Positions 1,867-22,245 of a stretch of DNA of 25,471 bases are shown in pieces. Source of the stretch: a virus. The position numbers and the translations under genes are program-made. A model generated the notes under the pieces. That model made no database searches. It worked only from the letters and a program-made list of their open reading frames with translations, and was not told the origin of the DNA. Where the stretch lies: positions 1 through 25,471 of the IMG/VR virus record IMGVR_UViG_3300035704_000390; one strand, written 5' to 3'. The stretch's first letter is position 1, and every line of letters begins with the position of its first letter.

Positions 1867-1922
1867 TCGATTACTTTCCTTTCTCGTCGTGGTAGCGTCC
1901 CCGCGGGTCGCGGAGGGACATC

Positions 1923-2978
1923 GTGGGGGCAATCCGGCTATTTCTTGCACTCGTCGTCGCCGCCAATCATTTCATGAACGAAACGATCTGGCCGTCGGGC
2001 GGCGTCATTTCGATGCGGGTTCTGCTCGGCTTCAATGCCGGCTATGCGGTGCTGTTCTTCTACGTGATCAGCGGATTCCTGATCACCTACACGCTGAGCG
2101 AAAACTATCGGCCGACCGCCGACGGCGTGGCCGCGTTCTATCGCAACCGCTTCATCCGCATCTTCTCGCTGTACTGGCCGCTGTTGGCTTTCGTCGTCGT
2201 GGCCGGGGAATGGCCGCACGAAATCGGCGACGTCCTGACCAACGTGTTCCTGATCGGCGCCGACTGGCGCGTCATGTTCGCGCGCTTTCCGGCGGAGCAT
2301 TGGGAGGCCCTTCCGACGCACCTGCATCAGGCCTGGACGCTCGCGCCCGAGCTCTGCTTCTATCTCGCGGCGCCATGGCTGCTGCGCTCATGGAAAGCGG
2401 CCGCCACCCTGCTCGGCCTCTCGTTTGCGTTGCGGTTCGCGCTCCTGGCGGTGCCCGGCCTCGATCCGCGCTGGACCTACCTGTTCGCGCCGCCGACGTT
2501 CGGCTTCTTCATGCTCGGTCATCTCGTGTGCAGGGCCGCGCGGCATTGGCCGCAGCTCGCGGACCGCCGCGCCGGCGGCGCGCTGCTCGCCATATGCTTC
2601 GCGACGCTCGCGCTCACGCGCCCGACCGTCGCGTTCGACACGCCGCGCCTGTGGGTGGCGATCCTCGCCTTCACGGCGGCCTTGCCCGGGCTGTTTGCCG
2701 CCACGAAGGATGCACGCCTGCTCAATACGCTCGGCGCCCTATCCTACCCGCTCTACCTGACGCATGAGCTCACGCGGGCCTATGGCGAGAGGCACCTCGT
2801 GGCATCGATCCCGCTCGATCACCCGATAATGTTGCTGGCCGCCTATTGCGCAGTTTGCGTCCTGATCGCTGTCGCGGTCCATTTTTTGATCGAGGGGCCG
2901 CTGGCAGCACTGGCGCGAACGACGACCAAACGCGTGATCAATGGGAGTTCCATGCCGCGCGGATCACCGGCGGAGTGA
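1923..2978 (+). CDS. acyltransferase 3 family membrane protein (OafA-like O-acetyltransferase)
   Basis: This 351-residue integral membrane protein with about ten hydrophobic segments belongs to the acyltransferase 3 family, which O-acylates surface polysaccharides. Family marks include IRLFLALVVAANHF at 4-17 with Arg5 and the conserved His16, FYVISGFLIT in the second membrane segment, and the basic loop FYRNRFIRIFSLYW. It lacks the C-terminal SGNH domain that some relatives carry. It starts with GTG, preceded by GGAGG. It lies on the opposite strand to the phage genes and upstream of a methyltransferase, and the pair looks like lysogenic-conversion cargo that could change O-antigen or another glycan. 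The actual substrate is unknown. Confidence 0.9.
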   Translation: MGAIRLFLALVVAANHFMNETIWPSGGVISMRVLLGFNAGYAVLFFYVISGFLITYTLSENYRPTADGVAAFYRNRFIRIFSLYWPLLAFVVVAGEWPHEIGDVLTNVFLIGADWRVMFARFPAEHWEALPTHLHQAWTLAPELCFYLAAPWLLRSWKAAATLLGLSFALRFALLAVPGLDPRWTYLFAPPTFGFFMLGHLVCRAARHWPQLADRRAGGALLAICFATLALTRPTVAFDTPRLWVAILAFTAALPGLFAATKDARLLNTLGALSYPLYLTHELTRAYGERHLVASIPLDHPIMLLAAYCAVCVLIAVAVHFLIEGPLAALARTTTKRVINGSSMPRGSPAE

Positions 2979-3046
2979 AGGGTGGGAATGTGAGGGTGCC
3001 CATTTGCAGGTTTCCATTTCCGCCTCCGTTGCGGTAGTCTTCCCGA

Positions 3047-3877
3047 ATGGGGCTCAGTCCAGGTTGGCTGGATTTATTTTGCGATCTCGTGCGCGCGGGG
3101 GAACTGAAGCCCGGCGATGCGATTCTGGATTTTGGCGCGTCCGAACTGTTCTGTTCCGACGATCCGCAAAGTCTCAATCGCGTTCTCTCCGCCTGCGGAG
3201 CGCCGCTCTATTCCGATGACGAGTTGGAACGGCTCGCTCAGCGCGCCTATGCGCGCATCCTATTCGAGCGTGCTGGATTTCGTTACGAGGCAATCGATTA
3301 CGCTGCTTATCCTGGCGTGATTCGGCTCGATCTCAATACCGCGTCGCTCCCCTCGGAACATCACGGAAAATATCGGCTCGTCAGTAACTCCGGCACCAGC
3401 GAGCACATCCTCAATCAATGGAACGTGTTCCAAGCGATACACGAGGCTGCGGCACCTGGCGCGCTGATGTACCACAGCGTGCCCGGCTGGGGCCATTTCG
3501 AGCATGGAATCATCGAGTACTCTCCGAAATTCTTCCGGGCGCTCGCGGACGCAAACGGTTATGAGATCGAGCGATTTTCGGCGTGGTCGGATGGGACTTC
3601 GGAAGTGCTCGACGTCCGCCGATTGCCCTGGGTGAAATTCTCGACGTCGCCAATAGTGGAAAAGGTTTGGCTTCACATCCTATTGCGGAAGTCCTCGGAT
3701 CGCCCATTCGCCGGACTCAATGATCCCGCGCACAATCGCGAATGGCGCATCCCGCAAAGCCGCCTGCGTTTTGAGGCGAGATCACCCGCGACCCGTATCG
3801 TCCGCCGACTTTTACTCAATTCTCTTCTTGCAGTTAGACGATTTGGCGAACGTGTGCAGGCTTTGACACATCGCTAG
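3047..3877 (+). CDS. probable class I SAM-dependent methyltransferase
   Basis: The 276-residue protein looks like a Rossmann-fold methyltransferase. Residues 25-33 (AILDFGASE) resemble motif I of the SAM site, Asp95 lies in a second-strand-like segment, and 109-120 (YRLVSNSGTSEH) resemble the post-II/IV region. A stretch like LYHSVP follows near 152. The C-terminal 60 residues are basic and hydrophobic. Codon use is clearly more AT-rich than in the phage genes, suggesting separate acquisition. It follows the acyltransferase by 68 bases and may share its transcript, perhaps methylating a glycan or a small molecule. Its TAG stop overlaps the stop of the convergent tail-collar gene on a single CTAG. 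No strong ribosome binding site is seen. Confidence 0.68.
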   Translation: MGLSPGWLDLFCDLVRAGELKPGDAILDFGASELFCSDDPQSLNRVLSACGAPLYSDDELERLAQRAYARILFERAGFRYEAIDYAAYPGVIRLDLNTASLPSEHHGKYRLVSNSGTSEHILNQWNVFQAIHEAAAPGALMYHSVPGWGHFEHGIIEYSPKFFRALADANGYEIERFSAWSDGTSEVLDVRRLPWVKFSTSPIVEKVWLHILLRKSSDRPFAGLNDPAHNREWRIPQSRLRFEARSPATRIVRRLLLNSLLAVRRFGERVQALTHR

Positions 3878-4869
3878 ATGATACGCAGTACGAAGGTAAG
3901 CATCATGCAAGGCGGAAGGATTGAGTGAGCAGCGCCTCCGCCGGCGTTCTGAATGGTGATTCCCGTCGTTGCCAACTGGGTAGTACCACCGGTCGCGTTA
4001 AACAATCCGGACGTCCCACCGCCATTCGCGCTCGGCCCCGTGAAAATAAAAGTGCGCGCATCCTGCGCGTGCGCGTGTCCCGAATCGTTCACGCCGTGGC
4101 TATGAGAAGGCATCTCGCTGCTGCTGAGGGCATGCGTAGCCGATCCTCCGGCTGATCCCAATGTTGCGCCGCTCACGGTCCCGCCGTCGGTCGAGACCGA
4201 ACCAACACGACTGGCCGCACTGCCGCCCATATTGTCGAGCCCGAAGATCGAGCGTCCACGCAAGTCCGGAATGTTGAACGTCGTGCTTCCGTCGCCCACT
4301 CCAAACGTCGTCCCGATCAGCGAAAACAGCGTCGCAAATCCCGTCCGCGAAATCGCCTGCCCGAAGGGCAACGCGAACGCCGTGTTGGGCGCGCTCGATC
4401 CGACGTAGGGCAACAGGCCGCCGACGGGAATTCCGTAAGGATTGGCAGTGCCGCCCTGCAGATAGAATGCGCCGTCGACATTGTTATATGTCGCGACGTA
4501 CGGCGTGCCCTGGATCAGCATCCCCGATTGCAGCTCGAGCCCAGGACCGTAGCGCAGCGGCTTCGCGCCGAGCCCATCCACGCTCAGCGTCACGGTCGCG
4601 CCGTTGGTGATATGCGGCACGAACGCGAGCATCGCGCCGGCGAGGTGCGCGAGGGTGTCGAAACCCTGGTTGCTCGCCATCGTGTAGGCGGTCGCGGTGC
4701 CGGCCGTCGTGATCGTGCCCGACACGTCGTCGCGCCACTCCGCGGTGCGCGCCATCATGGCGCGGGCCGAGTCGTTCACGGCGGAGGGCGACATGCCCTC
4801 GGCCCAGTTGATCGTCGGGTCGGCGGTCGCATTCGACGCCGCAGTCTTCGACCATTCCCAGAACGGCAT
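3874..4869 (-). CDS. tail collar domain fibre protein
   Basis: This 331-residue protein has an N-terminal fibre-like region starting MPFWEWSKTA. A phage tail collar domain follows at about 149-210 (VGGLLPYVGS to FNIPDLRGRSIFGLDNMGG). A Ser/Gly-rich tip contains MPSHSHG at 253-259 and HAHA at 265-268, typical of collar fibres where His residues line the receptor-binding tip. It probably binds the host surface. The start at 4869 is chosen because GGAG lies 9 bases upstream and the gap to the preceding stop is 4 bases; the frame extends 14 residues further without a site. The gene ends on a CTAG shared with the methyltransferase. Confidence 0.88.
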   Translation of the reverse strand: MPFWEWSKTAASNATADPTINWAEGMSPSAVNDSARAMMARTAEWRDDVSGTITTAGTATAYTMASNQGFDTLAHLAGAMLAFVPHITNGATVTLSVDGLGAKPLRYGPGLELQSGMLIQGTPYVATYNNVDGAFYLQGGTANPYGIPVGGLLPYVGSSAPNTAFALPFGQAISRTGFATLFSLIGTTFGVGDGSTTFNIPDLRGRSIFGLDNMGGSAASRVGSVSTDGGTVSGATLGSAGGSATHALSSSEMPSHSHGVNDSGHAHAQDARTFIFTGPSANGGGTSGLFNATGGTTQLATTGITIQNAGGGAAHSILPPCMMLTFVLRII

Positions 4870-5657: not shown

Positions 5658-6125
5658 ATGGTTGTTGGCGAGATCGCGGCTGGCGTGACCAGCCTGAAAG
5701 CAACGTTCGAACTCGCGCAGGCGATGATAGGCGTGCGAGATGCTGCCGCGTTCCAGGCCAAGCGCGCCGAAATGATCGGCCTTATCAACGACGCCCTGAG
5801 TAAGTCTATCGCATCCCAAGAGGCTCATCTGGAGTTGCTGGACGAGAAGCGCGCGCTTGAAGCAGAAGTAGCTCGCCTGACCGCATGGAATGCTGAGAAG
5901 AAGAATTACGAGCTTAAAACCATCGGTCGGGGCACGGTGGCTTTTATGTTGAAGCCAGATGCACGCGGCACCGAACCACCGCATTGGGTTTGCCCAACCT
6001 GTTTCGAGCAGAGCAAGAAAGCGTTTTTGCAGCCAACTGGCGTGCAGGTTGGCCGCGCCTTCCTGTTCCGGTGCCAGAACTGCCGGCAGGAGGTGGCGGC
6101 TAACTTTCAAGCCGAATGGAGTTAG
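5658..6125 (+). CDS. coiled-coil and zinc-ribbon protein (moron)
   Basis: This 155-residue cytoplasmic-looking protein has two parts. Residues about 10-85 are helical with a likely coiled coil (LLDEKRALEAEVARLTAW). Residues 110-145 carry two Cys pairs, C112/C115 (VCPTC) and C139/C142 (CQNC), that should bind zinc as a ribbon. The ATG at 5658 has GGAG upstream. It stands alone on the plus strand between two minus-strand phage genes. Base composition is lower in GC than its neighbours, which suggests separate origin. The zinc ribbon may bind nucleic acid or protein. No exact family is recognised. Confidence 0.72.
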   Translation: MVVGEIAAGVTSLKATFELAQAMIGVRDAAAFQAKRAEMIGLINDALSKSIASQEAHLELLDEKRALEAEVARLTAWNAEKKNYELKTIGRGTVAFMLKPDARGTEPPHWVCPTCFEQSKKAFLQPTGVQVGRAFLFRCQNCRQEVAANFQAEWS

Positions 6126-7902: not shown

Positions 7903-9369
7903 TCACCGCGCCCCTTCGAGCGCGACCTCGGGCTCGACGCCGGTCGCAAAACTCCATGGCGTGCCGGCGGGGATGCGCACGTTGCCGCGCGCGTAGCGCG
8001 TCGAGGCGCGCTGCGGGCAGCTTCCGCTCGCGTCCATGGCGCTCTCGGGCGAAAAGACTTCCGTATCGGTCAGCCGCTCGCGGGTGCCGACCGAGCCGAA
8101 GGCGGCCGGCGCGTCGGTGATCGGGCGGAAGCCGCGCACGAACACGCGCCGCCCCTCCTGCGCCTGGGCGCTGGTCGCGAGCCGCGCCTCGAGGTTCGGG
8201 CCGCGGAAGAAGCCGAGCTGATGCGATGCATTGAAGCCGGCGATCTCGGGCGTCGCCGAGGTCGCAAAGCTGTCGAGCGAGGCGGTCAGCGCGTCGAGCG
8301 AGCCGCCCGGCGCGATCGCGTCGAGATTCTCCAGCGTGAGCCCCGGCTGCGCGCACGAGCCGAGGAATTCGCCGCTCAGCACGATCGGCGTGAAGCGCGC
8401 GAGCACGTAGTCGTAGACGAGGAGCTTGTCGAAGCGCGCCGCCGCGCCGGCGTTCGACTTGTAGGCCCAGAAGACGCGGTTGTTCTTCGGGTCGGAGGCG
8501 CCGAGCACGAGCTGCAGGTTGCCCTTGTCGAGGTCGGCGAAAAAGGTGCGGTCGACGCGCTCCTTGCCGATCGCGGCCGGGTAGCCGCCCGGGTCCATCT
8601 GCTGAAAGCCCTGTGCGCCGAGGAAGAAGATGCGGTCGCCGGAGCGGATCAGCGAATACGGCGCATAGAGCCCGCGGTCGTCGCTGATGCGCTCGATCTG
8701 AAAGATCACCGGCGAGCCCGGCGCATAGATCATGCGGCGGATGGCGGTGTCCTGGAAGATGTTGCCGAACTCGCCGCCCGCGACGCCACGCACGATGCCG
8801 CCGTCGGGCAGGTCCTGGAAATTCGAGGAGTTGGTGGTGTTGGTCCAGTTGGTCGGATCGCCGAGGCCCGACCACTGCACGCGGTAGGGATTGTTGAGCA
8901 GGCCGGAGAGCACCACGAAGTCGCCGACCACCGCGATGTAGCGCGCCTGCGGCGGCGACCCGGCGAGGTTGCCGAATGCGGTCGACGCCGTGAGGTCGAA
9001 GAACTGCGGCGCGACATTCGCCTGCACGACGATGACGAAGTTGATGTACTGGACGAACTGCCACTGATCGCTCGCCGAGACCGCCGAATAGCTCCCCGCC
9101 CCGAGGCTCACGTCGCTCCAGGTCTGGTTGGTGTTGTTGAGCTGCCAGAGCTTGGTCGCGGTCGCGGCGAAAATCGCGGTCGAGCCGTCGGTCTTGATCG
9201 CCTTGAAGAAGCCGCGGCACGCCCCGGGCAGGCTGGCGCTGTAGGCGGCAAAATCCTGCATCGGGCCGTAGCCGTCGCCGCGCGGCAGCACGTTGACGAC
9301 CTGGTCCGTGTAGGCGGCGGCGTAGTCGCTGATGTCGGGGCGGTACTCGCCGAAGGGAACGAGAGGCAT
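7903..9369 (-). CDS. tail stabilisation/hub protein, P22 gp10-like
   Basis: The 488-residue protein resembles the P22 gp10 'packaged DNA stabilisation' family (P22 gp10 is about 470 residues), which forms the tail hub below the portal and closes the DNA channel. Evidence is its length, its beta-rich pattern throughout, phrases such as MPLVPFGEYRPDISDY at the start, LSGLLNNPYRVQWSGLGDPT near 160 and SLIRSGDRIFFLGAQGFQQM in the middle, and its place after the adaptor in the tail region. No catalytic site is expected. It is separated from the adaptor by the AraC/beta-helix island. The upstream ribosome binding site is weak. Assignment to the fold is by resemblance. Confidence 0.8.
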   Translation of the reverse strand: MPLVPFGEYRPDISDYAAAYTDQVVNVLPRGDGYGPMQDFAAYSASLPGACRGFFKAIKTDGSTAIFAATATKLWQLNNTNQTWSDVSLGAGSYSAVSASDQWQFVQYINFVIVVQANVAPQFFDLTASTAFGNLAGSPPQARYIAVVGDFVVLSGLLNNPYRVQWSGLGDPTNWTNTTNSSNFQDLPDGGIVRGVAGGEFGNIFQDTAIRRMIYAPGSPVIFQIERISDDRGLYAPYSLIRSGDRIFFLGAQGFQQMDPGGYPAAIGKERVDRTFFADLDKGNLQLVLGASDPKNNRVFWAYKSNAGAAARFDKLLVYDYVLARFTPIVLSGEFLGSCAQPGLTLENLDAIAPGGSLDALTASLDSFATSATPEIAGFNASHQLGFFRGPNLEARLATSAQAQEGRRVFVRGFRPITDAPAAFGSVGTRERLTDTEVFSPESAMDASGSCPQRASTRYARGNVRIPAGTPWSFATGVEPEVALEGAR

Positions 9370-9557
9370 GTGTGCGGCCTATGAGATTTGTTGCGGCGTG
9401 GCCCGGGTCGCTCGCCGATGGACCGGCGCAAACGAAATAGAAGCGCCTCTCAAGAATAAGAGAAGGCGGCCTGAAGGCCCGCTGCGCGGATGTCTGCCAC
9501 CCTCGCTGGTCCACCGAGTCCGCGGACGAGACCCGCCAAAGCGAGGAGCCGACGCGC

Positions 9558-10523
9558 ATGCCGAAAACCGCACCGTTCATGATGATCGCGACCTGGCGCA
9601 ACTTCATTGTTCCGCTGGCAGCCGCCGTTTTCACCGTCGTTGCGGCGCCCGCGCATGCGCAGACGCGCGTCTTCGTCGGCGCGCTGGGAGCCGACAGCAA
9701 CAGTTGCAGCTTCGCGGCGCCCTGCCGGACCTTCCAGCACGCGCATGATGTCCTTCCGGCAGGCGGGGGCGTCATCGACGTACTCGACCCCAGCCGTTAC
9801 GGCTCGATCACGATCACCAAGCCGATCGATATCCAGGGGCATGGGATTGCCGAGATATCCCCGGGTAGCGGTCATGACGGCATCACCATCAATGCCGGCG
9901 CAAACGACGCCATTCTCCTGACCGGCGTGCTCGTCAACGGGGCGGCGGTCGGCGGCTCCGGCATCGTGTTCAACACAGGCAAGAGCTTGAGCGTCGAGAA
10001 TTGCATCGTCCGCAATTTCACGAGCGCCGGCCTGCGTGCGGTCGCGGGCGTTTTTACGATATCCAACTCGTCCTTTGCCGATAACACCTTCAACGGGATC
10101 CTCCTGCAGGCCACCGGCGGGACGATCACGGCCGCCATCGATCGGACCGTGATGTCCGGCAACGGCTTCACCGGCCTCAACCTGATCGGGCAAGGCGCCG
10201 CGGCGAAAGCCACGGTGACGGACAGCATCGCGGCCAACAACCTCGGCAGTCCGCCCAACGGCAGCGTCGGCTTTTTCGTGCAGGCGGCCGGTGCCAAGAC
10301 GACCCTGGTGCTGACGCGCTCCACCGCCATGGGCAATGAGGTCGGAATTCAAGCGAGCGGCACGAACGGGGCCATACGGATCGGCGGATCGGTCGTGACG
10401 GAGAACACGACGGGCTTCACCGTGTCCTCGCCCGCACAAATCTTCACCTATCAGGACAACATTTTTGACGACAACGGCACCCCCAGCGGCGGCGGGACCT
10501 TGACGCTCGCCAATCCGCAATAG
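9558..10523 (+). CDS. secreted right-handed beta-helix protein, paralogue 1
   Basis: The 321-residue protein has an N-terminal signal peptide ending near residue 35 (AAPAHAQ). TRVFVGALGADSNSCSF...CRTFQ follows, with two Cys that probably form a disulphide. The rest is a run of short beta-strand turns (GITINAGA, GIVFNTGKSLSVENCIV, GVFTISNSSFADN) typical of a parallel beta-helix. Such exported proteins often bind or cut polysaccharides, but no catalytic residues can be assigned. GAGGAG lies about 10 bases before the start; an ATG 7 codons in is also possible. It is the first gene of a plus-strand cassette with an AraC regulator and a paralogue. Confidence 0.85.
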   Translation: MPKTAPFMMIATWRNFIVPLAAAVFTVVAAPAHAQTRVFVGALGADSNSCSFAAPCRTFQHAHDVLPAGGGVIDVLDPSRYGSITITKPIDIQGHGIAEISPGSGHDGITINAGANDAILLTGVLVNGAAVGGSGIVFNTGKSLSVENCIVRNFTSAGLRAVAGVFTISNSSFADNTFNGILLQATGGTITAAIDRTVMSGNGFTGLNLIGQGAAAKATVTDSIAANNLGSPPNGSVGFFVQAAGAKTTLVLTRSTAMGNEVGIQASGTNGAIRIGGSVVTENTTGFTVSSPAQIFTYQDNIFDDNGTPSGGGTLTLANPQ

Positions 10524-10659
10524 GTCGCGACGCGAGAAGGTCAGCGCCGTCGACGATACCTTACCGGGGTGCCGGAACGGGCCGGCGAGATTTTCCTCGC
10601 AGCCCGACCGGCGCTTCGATGCTATGCTGCCGACGACGCAGTATTGCAGGTCGAACGAG

Positions 10660-11637
10660 ATGTCAGTCTCCCCGTCGGACGCGGCGACGATCCAATTTTC
10701 CACCGATGCGTTTTCCGCACGCGAGCGCCTGACCGCCTGGCGCGACACATTCGGCAGCCAGATCGCCAAGCTCGACATCGCGCCTTTGCGCGAAATTCCG
10801 TTCTACGCTCACATGAACATGCGGCTGATGCCGGGGCTCGTCATCGCGTCCGGGTCCGGCGCCGTCAAGGACGTCGGTCGCACCCGGGCGCTGGTTGCCG
10901 ACGGCAATGAGAGCCTGGTCCTGCATATTGCGTCCTGCGCGGGCCGGGCAACGCAGTTCGGCCAGGACATCCCGGTCGCGGCCGGGGACGCGATCCTGCT
11001 GTCGAATTCCCACATCGGCACATTCACGTTCGAACGCGAGCAGTCGGTTCTCGCGATCGGATTGCCGCGCGCGACGCTCGCACCCTCTCTTCAAGATCCG
11101 GACGCCGCTTTTACCCTCACCGTCTCCAGGGACAACGAGGCGCTGCGGCTGCTAAAGGCCTATGCGGGGACGCTCGAGCGAGGGCCTCCGGTCAGCGAGG
11201 AATTGCAGGCGCTCGCGGCGGCTCATGTCAACGATCTCGTCGCGTTGGCGCTCGGCGCGACGCGCGACGCAACCGAGATTGCGCGGACACGCGGCATACG
11301 CGCCGCCCGACTGCACCTGGCCAAAGCCCACGTGACACGGCACCTCGGGTGGGCGGGCCTTTCGCCCGGCAGCGTGGCGGCGCATCTCGGCATCACGCCG
11401 CGCTACGTCCACATCCTGTTCGAGACCTCCGGCATGTCGTTCTCCGAGTTCGTGCTTGCCCGGCGGCTCGCGCACGCACACCGGATGCTGACCTCCCCGC
11501 TTCACGCTGGCCAGACCATTAGCGCGATCGCCTTTGCGGCCGGCTTCGCCGATCTATCGCACTTCAACCGAAGCTTCCGCCGCCGCTATGGCTGCACACC
11601 GTCCGACGTGCGCATCGCCAGGCGCCGCGAGCGGTGA
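10660..11637 (+). CDS. AraC-family transcriptional regulator
   Basis: The 325-residue cytoplasmic regulator has an N-terminal AraC-binding-like cupin domain (about residues 15-170). The C-terminal part (about 225-320) is an AraC/XylS DNA-binding domain with two helix-turn-helix motifs: GSVAAHLGITPRYVHILFE, and ISAIAFAAGFADLSHFNRSF followed by the signature RRRYGCTPSDVR. The start at 10660 is chosen for the downstream sequence MSVSPSDAAT; the frame also has an ATG at 10624. Both have weak ribosome binding sites. It lies between the two secreted beta-helix genes on the same strand, with gaps of 136 and 143 bases, and probably controls one or both. Confidence 0.92.
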   Translation: MSVSPSDAATIQFSTDAFSARERLTAWRDTFGSQIAKLDIAPLREIPFYAHMNMRLMPGLVIASGSGAVKDVGRTRALVADGNESLVLHIASCAGRATQFGQDIPVAAGDAILLSNSHIGTFTFEREQSVLAIGLPRATLAPSLQDPDAAFTLTVSRDNEALRLLKAYAGTLERGPPVSEELQALAAAHVNDLVALALGATRDATEIARTRGIRAARLHLAKAHVTRHLGWAGLSPGSVAAHLGITPRYVHILFETSGMSFSEFVLARRLAHAHRMLTSPLHAGQTISAIAFAAGFADLSHFNRSFRRRYGCTPSDVRIARRRER

Positions 11638-11780
11638 CGACAGGCCGCCGCACCAAACACGATCGCGACCTTCGTCACGATTTTTCCAATGGACTTCCAG
11701 AGCGGCACCAGATCAGCGATGACACGCAAAGCGCATATATGGCATCCTGGCCGCCACGTTACGCCCCGGGGGGATCCGCC

Positions 11781-12542
11781 ATGAAACACGCATCCATTTT
11801 CACCACCGCCATCGCGTTGCTCGCACTCGCGGCCCTTCACGCCACGCCGGCCCAGGCACAAGCGGCACGCGTGTTCGTCAGCGGCGCGGGCAACGACAAC
11901 AACAATTGCAGCATCACGCTGCCCTGCCACTCCTTCCAGAAGGCCCACGACAGCGTGGCGGCGAACGGCGTGATCAACGTGCTCGATCCGGGCAACTATG
12001 GTCCGGTGACCATCACGAAGTCGATCAGCATCGACGGCCACGGGTGGGCGGGCGTGACGTCCGCGGGCAGCGGCAACGGGATCACGATCAATGCCGGCGC
12101 CACTGACAACATCAATTTGAGCGGCATCGTGATCGACGGCCTCAACGCCGGCGCCAACGGGATTGCGTTCAACAGCGGCGGATATCTGCAGATCGCCGAC
12201 TGCACGATCCGACATTTTGTGACCAACGGAGTCTTGCTTCAGTCAAACAGCGTGACGGGCGGGACCCCGACCATGATCCTGAACAGCGTCATCACGCAGA
12301 ACAATGCCGGAATCAATGTGATCCATAGTATTCTGTCGGTCGACAGATCGACCTTGGCCAAGAACGGCACCGCATTCGTCATAAACGACGGCGAGCTCCA
12401 ACTTGGTCGCTCGAGCGTCTTTGCCAACACCGCAGTGGCGCCCACTGATTTTACGGGCGCCTCGTTCGTAAGCTTCGGCGACAACCACTTCTTCAGCAAC
12501 GGCGGCACCGTCCCGATTTTCTTTAAGCCCCCGCTAGAATAG
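11781..12542 (+). CDS. secreted right-handed beta-helix protein, paralogue 2
   Basis: The 253-residue protein has a signal peptide to about residue 28 (HATPAQAQA). RVFVSGAGNDNNNCSI...CHSFQKAHD follows, closely matching the start of paralogue 1, including the Cys pair. It continues with GNGITINAGATDNINLSGIV and further beta-helix turns. It is about 70 residues shorter than paralogue 1. GGGGGGA precedes the ATG at 11781, which is chosen over longer upstream readings that lack a signal peptide. It is the third gene of the cassette, 143 bases after the AraC regulator. Substrate or partner is unknown. Confidence 0.85.
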   Translation: MKHASIFTTAIALLALAALHATPAQAQAARVFVSGAGNDNNNCSITLPCHSFQKAHDSVAANGVINVLDPGNYGPVTITKSISIDGHGWAGVTSAGSGNGITINAGATDNINLSGIVIDGLNAGANGIAFNSGGYLQIADCTIRHFVTNGVLLQSNSVTGGTPTMILNSVITQNNAGINVIHSILSVDRSTLAKNGTAFVINDGELQLGRSSVFANTAVAPTDFTGASFVSFGDNHFFSNGGTVPIFFKPPLE

Positions 12543-12634
12543 CCATCGCGCCCCGGCGCGACGGCATCGCGGCGGGCGCCGCATGACGACGGCCCGGGTA
12601 CGCTTTTCGCGACCCAGTCCAGCCGACGCCTAGC

Positions 12635-13258
12635 TCACGGCGTCGCGCCCATCACGCGCACCGCCGAGGGCGCGCGCGTCCTGGCGTCGAGCCGGTCGAT
12701 CTCGTCAAAGATCGCGTCGCGCCGTCCGGCCCACAGCGCCAGGCTGTCGGGATCCTTGACGAAGCCGTGCGCCTCGGCGAGCGCGCCGAAGAGATAGAGG
12801 TCGGGCCAGGTGGCGAAGAGCCAGTTGGTCGCGACCGGCGGCGTCTGCGCGGCGAGCGCCGCGAGATTTGGGACCTTCTGGAAATAGTCGAACGTCAGGC
12901 CGGTGTTGTCGGATGGCCCGAGCGTGAGGTTCGGCCCCTCGATGGTGAAGTAGCGCGGGTTGCCCTGCGGCAGCGTCGGAAACAGCGCATGCAGGTAGGA
13001 CGGATGCACGTATTCGAGCTCGCGCGGCGCGCTGCCGGTCCAGGTGACGCGCCGCCAGGTGAGATAATCCGCCGGCAGCGTCGCGACGCCGTTCGCGGGG
13101 GTTAGCGTGACGGTCGCCTCCTGCTGGCGCACGCGCAGGCGGCGGTTCGCCACGGTCTCGAACAGTGCGATGAAGTCGGGGATGTTCGCGGCGAGATCGG
13201 CGCGGGCGAGCCAGCTCGCGACCGCGGTCTGCAGGTCGGTGTAGGTTTGCAGGGGCAT
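12635..13258 (-). CDS. phage adaptor/head-tail connector protein, SU10 adaptor-like
   Basis: The 207-residue protein looks like the SU10-type adaptor that docks under the portal. It starts MPLQTYTDLQTAVASWLARADL and continues with FIALFETVANRRLRVR near residue 30 and a run of beta strands in the middle (TLPADYLTWRRVTWTG, LTLGPSDNTGLTFDYFQKVP). It ends with a helical section from about 140 that includes WPDLYLFGALAEAHGFVKD. The family links portal to tail. It lies 198 bases downstream of the small conserved gene at 13457-13744 and before the beta-helix cassette. No clear ribosome binding site is seen before the ATG. Confidence 0.85.
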   Translation of the reverse strand: MPLQTYTDLQTAVASWLARADLAANIPDFIALFETVANRRLRVRQQEATVTLTPANGVATLPADYLTWRRVTWTGSAPRELEYVHPSYLHALFPTLPQGNPRYFTIEGPNLTLGPSDNTGLTFDYFQKVPNLAALAAQTPPVATNWLFATWPDLYLFGALAEAHGFVKDPDSLALWAGRRDAIFDEIDRLDARTRAPSAVRVMGATP

Positions 13259-19927: not shown

Positions 19928-20347
19928 TCACGCCAGCTGCAGGACGCCGTTGGTCGGATCGAACTGCACCTGGAAGCTGTTGCCCGCCGTGACCGTGAGA
20001 TTGGTGCCGTAGTCGTACCAGCCGACCAGGTTGCCGGCGGCGGGCGTCGCATTATAGAGGACACAGTAGCGGAACGGGCCGATCGCGCCCGGCGTCGCCG
20101 TGAACGTGACGTTGTTGAGCTTCAATATATATGTGCCGCCGGACTGCGCCGACGAGACCAGCGTCGCGGCGCTGCCGCCCGCCGTGTAGCCGTTGCCGGC
20201 GGCGATCTCGACGATGTTGGCGAAAACGGTATTCGTCGCGACCGGCGCCGTGTTGGTAAGTGCGACTTTCAGCGTATCGCTTCCGAGATTGTGCACTTTA
20301 TTGGCGACGTCCGCGACGAATTGGTTGAACTTGTTGAAGGTGGCCAT
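19928..20347 (-). CDS. small beta-rich phage tail protein
   Basis: The 139-residue protein starts MATFNKFNQFVADVANKVHN and continues with LGSDTLKVALTNTAPVATNT. A beta-rich core follows (GGTYILKLNNVTFTATPGAI, CVLYNATPAAGNLVGWYDYG). It resembles small structural proteins often found beside phage tail fibres or heads. It is 9 bases before the fibre gene and is the first phage gene after the plus-strand island. GGGGT is a weak ribosome binding site. A role in fibre attachment or the virion surface is inference. Confidence 0.78.
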   Translation of the reverse strand: MATFNKFNQFVADVANKVHNLGSDTLKVALTNTAPVATNTVFANIVEIAAGNGYTAGGSAATLVSSAQSGGTYILKLNNVTFTATPGAIGPFRYCVLYNATPAAGNLVGWYDYGTNLTVTAGNSFQVQFDPTNGVLQLA

Positions 20348-20739
20348 TCGCTACCCCGTTTGATTTTGTCAGCCGTGACCGTCACCCGAGGTGTGTCTCG
20401 GAGGGCTGCTGCGATCGAGTAGTCACGGCAAATGGAATGGAACGCCGACAGCGCTCTGCACCGATGGCGCGGCGTATGGGATCGCCGGCATTCATGGGCG
20501 AAGACGGCGCTGCTGTTGGGCCAGACGGAAACCGGGCGCACATGGTGGATGCGCGGCGCGGCGCGAGCAGCGCAAAACAACCGCAACCGTCACTTGCCAG
20601 GCATCATTTTCACGCGTCAGGCGCGGCCTTTAACCTTCCCCATGGAACCGCATCGCAATGTGACAAATCGCCTTGTCAGGCCGGAGCGCCTATGGTTCAA
20701 AAAACCGTGCGGTAATTTAACACTCCCAGGGGGGATGCT
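20348..20739. other. intergenic stretch without a convincing gene
   Basis: This 392-base gap must hold the promoters of the divergent genes on either side. A plus-strand frame (20432-20743) encodes 103 residues, Trp/Arg-rich with no recognisable domain, and has no good ribosome binding site. I regard it as unproven. No strong -35/-10 pair could be fixed by eye. The last 40 bases (caaaaaaccgtgcggtaatt) are AT-richer and are the likely promoter area for the gene at 20740. Confidence 0.5.
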
Positions 20740-21573
20740 ATGAAATCTGGAATTGCGTTGAAATCTGCGCTGGCCTTATCTGCCTCGGCTCTTGCACTCA
20801 CGTGGGCCGCGAGTCCGGCGGCCGCCGACTCGCAGAATATCAAAGGCTCCTACTTCTTCACGGGCTCGGCCTCGTGTCTCGTCTCGCCGGGTCATTTCGA
20901 TGCCCCGAATCCTCTTCCGGGCAACCCGCAGCCCGGCGTGCTCGCGCCCGGCTCCGGCTTCAACATCCGGCTGCAGCCGAACGACATCACGCTCCCCAAC
21001 CTGCCGAATGGAACTAACGACCAGCAGTCGTTCACCCGTTCGTTCTCGGTCACGGGCATTCGCACCTTCGACGGCAATGGCCATGGCACCGTCAACGGCA
21101 GCGCCGTCGGCCACGACGGCCGCCCGACGCCGGGGCCGACCGGCTGGCCGCACTTCCCGCCGTCGGCGGGCTCGTCCACCTTCAGCTACACGTTCACCTA
21201 TACGGTCGACGGCAACGGCGGCTGGAGCGCCACCATGGACCGGGGCAGCTTCAAGGAGACCTCCACCAGCGGCTCGCGCGCCATCGGACCGAACGGGGTC
21301 GACGCCAACGGGCAGCCGGTCGACGCGGGCTTCCCGCAGACCGCCACCATGTCCGACCCGAGCGGGCAAGGGTTCGACGTGATCCCGCCGATCGTCGGGT
21401 CGATCACCAACGACGGCAAGGTGCTGACCGCCTCGCATCCCGCGACCGTGGTGGAGACGCGCCTGTTCTCCAACGGCGACGTGTGGCCGGAGATCTGCGC
21501 GCGCTCGCGCGTGTTCACCCTGTTGCCGAACAACAACGGCAACGGCAACGGCAATAACGGCAACGGCAAGTAA
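20740..21573 (+). CDS. exported protein of unknown function with Asn/Gly tail
   Basis: The 277-residue protein has a signal peptide of about 29 residues (ALTWAASPAAADS). The mature part is beta-rich with Gly, Thr and Asn, including NIKGSYFFTGSASC and FNIRLQPNDITLPNLPNG. It has two Cys, one near the mature start (SASCLV) and one near the end (PEICAR), which may pair. It ends in a low-complexity tail (LLPNNNGNGNGNNGNGK). GGGGGG precedes the ATG. It is on the opposite strand to the phage genes, and the STN-like gene follows. No family is recognised. It could be a periplasmic or surface protein. Confidence 0.78.
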   Translation: MKSGIALKSALALSASALALTWAASPAAADSQNIKGSYFFTGSASCLVSPGHFDAPNPLPGNPQPGVLAPGSGFNIRLQPNDITLPNLPNGTNDQQSFTRSFSVTGIRTFDGNGHGTVNGSAVGHDGRPTPGPTGWPHFPPSAGSSTFSYTFTYTVDGNGGWSATMDRGSFKETSTSGSRAIGPNGVDANGQPVDAGFPQTATMSDPSGQGFDVIPPIVGSITNDGKVLTASHPATVVETRLFSNGDVWPEICARSRVFTLLPNNNGNGNGNNGNGK

Positions 21574-21586
21574 CCTGAACCGTTGC

Positions 21587-21618
21587 GGGCCGGTCCGACC
21601 TCGCGGACGGACCGGCCC
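21587..21618 (+). terminator. hairpin after the exported-protein gene
   Basis: Arms gggccggtccg (21587-21597) and cggaccggccc (21608-21618) are perfect 11-base complements with a 10-base loop. It lies 14 bases after the stop at 21573. Only a short, weak T-rich stretch (gtgactctta) follows, so termination strength is uncertain. Confidence 0.5.
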
Positions 21619-21657
21619 GTGACTCTTAACTCGCCGACGGCAAGCCGAGCCCGCCTC

Positions 21658-22059
21658 ATGCGCCGAAGCCGGACGTCACCGCGCCTGTCTGGTGTTCGCG
21701 CATGCGCGATCGCGATCGCGCTTTGCCTCGTGCCGCTAGCGGCGCAGGGCGAAGTCCGCGTCGACGGCAATCCGGCCGCCATCCGCATCACCACCCATCA
21801 TGATTCGATCAACAACGTGCTGGCCGCGCTGCGCACGAGCTTCCACGTGCAGCACCGGAGCGCGATCGCGCTCGATATGCCGGCCAACCCAACCTATGCG
21901 GGTCCGCTCGACCGCGTGATCGCCAACCTGCTCGACGACTTCAACTACATCGTCAAGAAGAGCCCGGCCGAGACCGAGATCATCATTCTCGGCCACCACG
22001 GCGAGGCCGCGATGCCGCCGCAGAAGCCCAGGCTCGACATCCTGTCGCGCTGGCGCTGA
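21658..22059 (+). CDS. small exported protein with STN-like fold
   Basis: The 133-residue protein has a basic N-terminus and a hydrophobic signal sequence (ACAIAIALCLVPLAAQG) ending near residue 31. The mature part, with RITTHHDSINNVLAALRTSF, HVQHRSAIALDMPANPTYAG and VIANLLDDFNYIVKKSPAET, resembles the secretin/TonB short N-terminal (STN) domain, which usually lies at the start of secretins and TonB receptors. Here it stands alone with a Pro-rich tail (MPPQKPRLDILSRW). The ATG at 21658 has no strong ribosome binding site; the same frame is open from 21583. It follows a hairpin after the exported-protein gene. Function unknown. Confidence 0.72.
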   Translation: MRRSRTSPRLSGVRACAIAIALCLVPLAAQGEVRVDGNPAAIRITTHHDSINNVLAALRTSFHVQHRSAIALDMPANPTYAGPLDRVIANLLDDFNYIVKKSPAETEIIILGHHGEAAMPPQKPRLDILSRWR

Positions 22060-22087
22060 CAGTTCTCTTTATTTCATGCTCTTGCGA

Positions 22088-22172
22088 CGTCATTGCCCGC
22101 GAAAGCGGGCAATCCAGTATCCACGAGAGTCAGTGAGTACCGGATCGCCCGCTTTCGCGGGCGATGACGGCG
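22088..22172. repeat. REP-like palindromic repeat, copy 2
   Basis: It opens with cgtcattgcccgcgaaagcg and closes with gctttcgcgggcgatgacgg, so its ends are inverted and can fold. It matches the ends of the repeat at 606-746, with a shorter centre. It lies between the STN-like gene and the end of the portal gene, close to the convergent stops of both. Confidence 0.75.
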
Positions 22173-22211
22173 GTGTGTGAGGTGCGGACGTGATGACGTC
22201 ACGCGCCAACA

Positions 22212-22245
22212 ACTCAAATCGGCTCCAAACTTAAATCGGCTCCAA
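22212..22245. repeat. 17-bp tandem duplication at the portal stop
   Basis: Copies 22212-22228 and 22229-22245 (aaatcggctccaa core) differ at one base. On the minus strand they contain the last codons of the portal gene (Leu-Glu-Pro-Ile, TAA) and then a second near-copy. It lies 40 bases from the REP-like repeat and may be a replication slip. Confidence 0.8.

Follow-up and report, generated by a model that had tools for sequence, protein, structure and literature searches.

A beta-helix protein pair and an AraC-type regulator as probable host-derived cargo of a soil phage

Genes at the locus

The window analysed here comprises the 25,471 bases of an IMG/VR virus record and is a linear fragment of a phage from soil. 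Its structural genes, which code for an SU10-type portal, the major capsid protein, an adaptor, a stabilisation protein, tail proteins and a GH108 lysozyme, are all on the minus strand. ORF and domain searches confirmed that three plus-strand genes are present between the adaptor and tail-stabilisation genes, as the initial annotation had described: a regulator gene of the AraC/XylS type and, on either side of it, genes for two paralogous proteins that we call P1 and P2. They had been placed inside the tail operon, which is correct by position but not by direction, as the trio is an antisense insert. The features of the region are as follows.

7903-9369, minus strand: gene for the virion/tail stabilisation protein (phrog_3287; INPHARED name 'phage stabilization protein'), one edge of the slot
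9358-12634: cargo insertion, the whole segment missing from the empty site of the related contig L084 (blastn)
9558-10523, plus strand: P1, predicted exported right-handed beta-helix protein of 321 aa (PF13229), with the ribosome-binding site GAGGAG upstream
about 9558-9662, plus strand: P1 signal peptide, read by eye
10524-10659: gap between P1 and the regulator gene, with a terminator-like hairpin at 10570-10587 (plus strand)
10624-11637, likelier start ATG 10660, plus strand: AraC/XylS-type regulator (HTH_18, HTH_AraC, AraC_binding_2)
11638-11780: gap between the regulator gene and P2, candidate promoter region of P2 as judged from sequence
11781-12542, plus strand: P2, a paralogue of 253 aa, shorter than P1
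about 11781-11861, plus strand: P2 signal peptide, read by eye
12635-13258, minus strand: SU10-type adaptor gene (PF24175, phrog_2941), the other edge of the slot

The start of the regulator gene is probably the ATG at 10660, which agrees with the gap coordinates of the initial annotation. For P2 we retained the ATG at 11781, because the longer ORF from a GTG at 11634 overlaps the stop codon of the regulator gene and would bury the signal peptide. The hairpin at 10570-10587 is a consensus match only, five terminator-like sites being observed where 2.6 are expected.

P1 and P2 are predicted exported beta-helix proteins

P1 matched PF13229 (Beta_helix, E 1.7e-9) and PF05048 in Pfam, and P2 had no Pfam match. 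The two proteins share 42% identity over 188 aa (44% in a second comparison), with an E value of 4.6e-36 that makes a chance likeness untenable, and the family tree joins them as sisters with support 98/89. The common N-terminal opening reported for them, RVFV...C...C..FQ.AHD, was recovered in both (RVFVGALGADSNSCSFAAPCRTFQHAHD and RVFVSGAGNDNNNCSITLPCHSFQKAHD). AlphaFold (AF2) modelled each as a right-handed beta-helix (pLDDT 85.4 and pTM 0.82 for P1, pLDDT 83.9 for P2), and these models, together with the Pfam match of P1, support the beta-helix nature first proposed. Both proteins start with what reads by eye as a Sec-type signal peptide ending in AxA-Q, a feature also clear in many relatives, and we have little doubt that they are exported.

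Searched alone against solved structures, P1 gave no match; with Foldseek, its best PDB match was the pectate lyase Pel9A (TMq 0.67). P1 is alike in fold to Pel9A and to the mannuronan C5-epimerases AlgE4/AlgE6 (Foldseek E 8e-6 and 1e-5), and there is a weak profile match to AlgE4 (3.6e-10). P1 and P2 differ from these enzymes in having 14-18% identity to them, a two-cysteine N-terminal cap and, in the alignment, no conserved catalytic-type residue in the body. Across the whole family, the alignments likewise revealed no conserved catalytic-type polar residue in the helix body, where only Gly and Asn turn residues are kept. The suggestion that the two proteins bind or process glycans is thus compatible with the fold, and its processing half is weakened by the lack of such residues. 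Since none is conserved, a binding role is favoured over an enzymatic one, and on the strength of the alignments we lean towards P1 and P2 acting in surface binding.

Exact insertion of the trio into a slot that varies among relatives

With the two virion proteins that border the trio as queries, we retrieved about twenty related contigs from IMG/VR. One of them, L084, is 91-92% identical to the window in both flanking proteins (91% in the stabilisation protein) and has the site empty, its adaptor stop and the start of the next gene being 2 bp apart. In blastn, homology between the window and L084 ends at 9357 and resumes at 12635, and its empty site therefore identifies 9358-12634 as an exact insertion, whose junctions coincide exactly with gene borders. 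Comparison with this empty-site relative bears out the view of the trio as phage cargo. The G+C content of the insert is slightly below that of the rest of the window (0.644 versus 0.669), and that of P2 alone is 0.601.

In other relatives, the slot between the adaptor and stabilisation genes is 18 to 3116 bp long. Three of them carry in it small, exported cysteine-rich proteins of the GCG_CRPN type (NF047412), encoded antisense to the phage genes (L088:9578-9814(-), L089:1993-2229(-) and L093:1563-1889(-)). That of L095 harbours a TctC/Bug-type periplasmic binding protein (PF03401) at 11956-12909(+) plus two other ORFs; the TctC/Bug-type gene is a host-type gene running in the phage orientation. 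As its contents differ among relatives, we regard the slot as a cargo site, one that often takes exported host-type proteins. In four relatives (L092, L093, L098 and L101), the match to the stabilisation gene itself is broken near residue 354, with ~230 bp between the pieces, which suggests an insertion within the protein.

The trio resembles phage morons, which are accessory genes located between conserved structural genes, on the opposite strand and missing from near-identical relatives: here too, extra DNA separates genes that are adjacent in L084, in a slot that varies among the other relatives. It differs from them in that a paralogous exoprotein pair encloses its own AraC-type regulator, and the phage collections that we searched contain no such cargo. 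The divergence of P1 and P2 (dS >1 in the cap as well as in the body) long predates the separation of the phage from L084, whose flank is 91% identical, and the two genes thus appear to have entered the phage as a ready-made pair. By this reasoning, they were probably captured together.

Other segments of the window also fail to align with L084. A plus-strand cargo island at 1884-4213 comprises genes for an O-acyltransferase (PF01757, 1923-2978) and a methyltransferase-like protein (3047-3877, G+C 0.573); the methyltransferase-like gene has a homologue in the Bradyrhizobium-family prophage L204. A second plus-strand island, at 20348-22231 between the portal gene and the gene at 19928-20347, codes for an exported protein (20740-21573) and for another of 158 aa with no assigned family (21583-22059). 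Lastly, the plus-strand ORF at 5658-6125 has a low G+C content (0.577) and no Pfam or NCBIfam match.

Occurrence in other phages

We found no relatives of P1 in INPHARED phages or PLSDB plasmids, in line with the initial remark that the arrangement is not known as phage cargo, and among the papers listed for AraC, beta-helix and prophage, or for beta-helix and T2SS in rhizobia, none describes it. Pattern scans of IMG/VR with P1, P2 or the regulator as single queries returned no relative, which is weak evidence as such scans miss distant and maybe close records. Using a profile, we collected helix genes from three more virus contigs (L209, L210 and L211), none of which carries an AraC gene. L209 and L210 each have a single helix gene with the neighbouring tail genes on the opposite strand; helix genes are thus recurrent phage cargo. 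L210 also carries an O-acyltransferase, like the window at 1923-2978. Among the collections searched, the regulator together with a helix pair has so far been found in one phage. No integrase gene was detected in the window fragment or in the eight relatives checked, whose records are incomplete, and we therefore infer lysogeny from relatives such as the prophage ppBeUSDA76-2.

A patchy chromosomal family with large arrays

The helix family is mainly chromosomal and patchily distributed. It was detected in 24 of the 248 genomes sampled from the family of Bradyrhizobium sp. 132 (10%), and in three of 289 drawn from the class of G001 (Centralia_MAG_152), a 5.4-Mb alphaproteobacterial MAG. G001 itself harbours 51 helix copies (loci L064-L073), an expansion of one exported helix family with a constant cap and a variable body that has not been studied before. 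The related genome G019 has 15 helix genes, and 14 of these make up a single 17-kb array with two AraC genes (G019:C5 230001-270000; L074, L075). Among array paralogues, the first 115 residues, which form the cap, have dN values of 0.03-0.10, and the body has values of 0.30-0.46. This pattern would fit a fixed cap with a variable binding face; relaxed constraint, or partial gene conversion in the cap, could possibly also give rise to it.

The idea, raised in the initial annotation, that the three-gene arrangement is tied to prophages was not supported. The trio is found in none of about 30 related Bradyrhizobium-family prophages, in which the slot is mostly occupied by other tail genes, and the chromosomal AraC and helix genes have non-phage surroundings, including a T2SS operon, phosphofructokinase and asparagine synthase. 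The opposite distribution that had been considered, mostly chromosomal and unlinked to phage, is thus seen in part, for the combination of AraC and helix genes.

Genetic association with type II secretion

In G019, the large array is directly followed by an apparently complete T2SS operon coding for GspD, E, F, a pseudopilin-like protein, K, a PilN-like L and M, with one more helix gene after it. We searched for the GspD of this operon in 36 helix-bearing genomes, and 20 had a clear match. In 11 of these 20 genomes, no more than 12 kb separates the secretin gene from a helix gene, for 0.51 expected by random placement (P about 4e-15, under a null that assumes independence of genomes and of clustered helix genes); the other nine have no close linkage, in some cases owing to fragmented contigs. 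The genomic link between the helix family and T2SS is strong.

Such linkage to gsp genes, as would be expected of T2SS exoproteins, is found for the family and not for the phage copies, the window being devoid of T2SS genes. Judging from these genetic neighbourhoods, the chances that P1 and P2 would leave the cell by T2SS appear about even. There is a likeness to CTX phage, whose exoprotein is exported by the host T2SS: P1 and P2 would also be phage-borne exported proteins that rely on a host T2SS. They are unrelated to the CTX proteins, and the host is likely a soil or plant-associated alphaproteobacterium.

The regulator and its chromosomal relatives

The product of the middle gene matched HTH_18 (4.6e-22), HTH_AraC and AraC_binding_2 (PF12833, PF00165 and PF14525, all above cut-offs), and it has the C-terminal double HTH and N-terminal sensing domain of AraC/XylS proteins. 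In the three upstream gaps, common 10-14-mers that might represent an operator motif were no better than those of shuffled sequence, and direct repeats were not found. A sigma-70 scan, which covers alphaproteobacterial promoters poorly, had no match. With no operator found, the proposal of local control by the regulator is drawn from gene order.

In G001 there are three places, and in G019 two, where an AraC homologue lies no more than about 300 bp from helix genes. The three G001 loci (C58, C77 and C202) encode the three best matches of the regulator in that genome and are located inside or at the edge of arrays. Both G019:C5 homologues lie in the array, one of them in a helix-AraC-helix arrangement with all genes on the plus strand. 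With a simple placement model, the probabilities of AraC-helix adjacency by chance are about 7e-4 and 3e-3. The idea that the regulator and the paralogues make up a module is therefore borne out by its recurrence with the same kinds of genes, once in the same order and orientation. No AraC homologue adjoins a helix gene in the 24 helix-bearing genomes of the Bradyrhizobium family, so that the linkage is confined to G001, G019 and the phage. An AraC tree, built to look for vertical co-inheritance with the helix arrays, did not group the phage regulator with those of the arrays, and the branching around the phage protein is poorly supported. The AraC-helix association may thus have originated repeatedly.

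At five loci of the same AraC subfamily in the Bradyrhizobium family and G019 (L135, L136, L137, L139 and L113), a simple tally without a null model recorded surface-protein neighbours. The neighbours of chromosomal AraC kin include autotransporters, a YadA-head protein, an outer-membrane beta-barrel and FG-GAP/RTX repeat proteins. By family name, the TIGR04094 regulators of YSIRK-targeted surface antigens in Gram-positive bacteria also represent AraC-type genes beside surface-protein genes; only the generic HTH of the trio regulator matches that signature (E 3.8e-5, far below cut-off), and the proteins and phyla are different.

Alternative interpretations

The location of P1 and P2 among tail genes, and a Foldseek likeness to tail spikes and depolymerases (Depo32, CBA120 TSP2), might suggest that they are virion parts that recognise host polysaccharide. 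Tail spikes would be expected in the late-gene orientation, without signal peptide and with a virion attachment domain. P1 and P2 do not fit this profile: both genes run against the direction of the late operon, both products have apparently cleavable Sec-type signal peptides (by eye) and no PHROG match, and we rejected a tail-spike identity on these grounds. Moreover, none of the close relatives of the phage has P1 or P2, and their chromosomal relatives adjoin T2SS genes in non-phage contexts. A virion role is thus extremely unlikely. That the trio has no function at all, as DNA acquired by illegitimate recombination or as an assembly chimera, is very unlikely as well. It is present on a single contig with no second copy in IMG/VR by the pattern scans, but its junctions fall exactly at gene borders, its three open frames have recognisable starts, relatives fill the same slot with cargo, and the window bears further plus-strand cargo elsewhere.

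Two other hypotheses retain the trio as functional cargo. The helix proteins might chiefly serve the phage by coating the lysogen and blocking the adsorption of competitors (superinfection exclusion), as could the O-acyltransferase at 1923-2978. The window and the unrelated L210 both pair a helix gene with Acyl_transf_3, which is typical receptor-modifying cargo, and the variable helix face is in keeping with such a role. Nevertheless, the family resides mostly on chromosomes and has expanded in places with no phage in sight, which suggests that it has a host role of its own, and we consider a chiefly phage-serving function unlikely. Alternatively, the regulator might mainly act on host or phage genes elsewhere, with the helix genes as passengers. 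AraC/XylS regulators are known as accessory genes of prophages, namely AppY of DLP12, PsrB and PatE, with wide host regulons (PMC10057817). The chromosomal kin of the trio regulator are often apart from helix genes, and its upstream gaps contain no local operator that we could find. Unlike AppY, known for its control of a host regulon, it lies between exported-protein genes and has homologues in arrays of the same family. This AraC/helix association in two host genomes (G001 and G019), along with the surface or exported proteins that often adjoin its chromosomal kin (by the tally without null), argues against a mainly distant role, which we regard as improbable. Control of the neighbouring P1 and P2 by the regulator is what gene order slightly favours, and that the trio would form a self-controlled module is plausible.

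Proposed mechanism and significance

Altogether, the trio is very likely captured host cargo. Our preferred reading, which we hold by a modest margin of confidence, is that of a lysogenic-conversion ('moron') cassette from an alphaproteobacterial chromosome, with a pair of beta-helix proteins controlled by AraC and exported by Sec and T2SS. Capture is well supported, and we infer that the regulator controls P1 and P2 and that these leave the cell by T2SS. In the lysogen, transcription of the trio would start from its own promoter(s), and the AraC protein would sense some signal and turn on P1 and P2. Their products would use Sec to pass the inner membrane, reach their folded state in the periplasm around a conserved cap with two cysteines (C50/C56) and be handed by the host T2SS to the cell exterior. 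There, the variable helix face may bind glycans or other surfaces, which would alter adhesion or mask phage receptors.

More tentatively, the helix proteins might represent a class of T2SS exoproteins that has escaped recognition, is diversifying and is repeatedly taken up by phages, a possibility that we view with some doubt. If so, the class would combine a constant export cap with a variable recognition helix in arrays that reach 14 or more genes and include AraC switches, and a lysogen would gain an exchangeable outer-surface recognition pair under its own switch.

The finding connects phage cargo with an exported-protein family of soil alphaproteobacteria that is large and unstudied, and provides this family with a candidate regulator and with T2SS as an export route that can be tested. 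In addition, the adaptor-stabilisation slot is defined as a site that holds exported host-type proteins in several related phages, whose effects on the cell surface are directly testable. What the phage has acquired is probably a bacterial module for surface proteins, which could alter the coat of the bacteria in which the phage lives.
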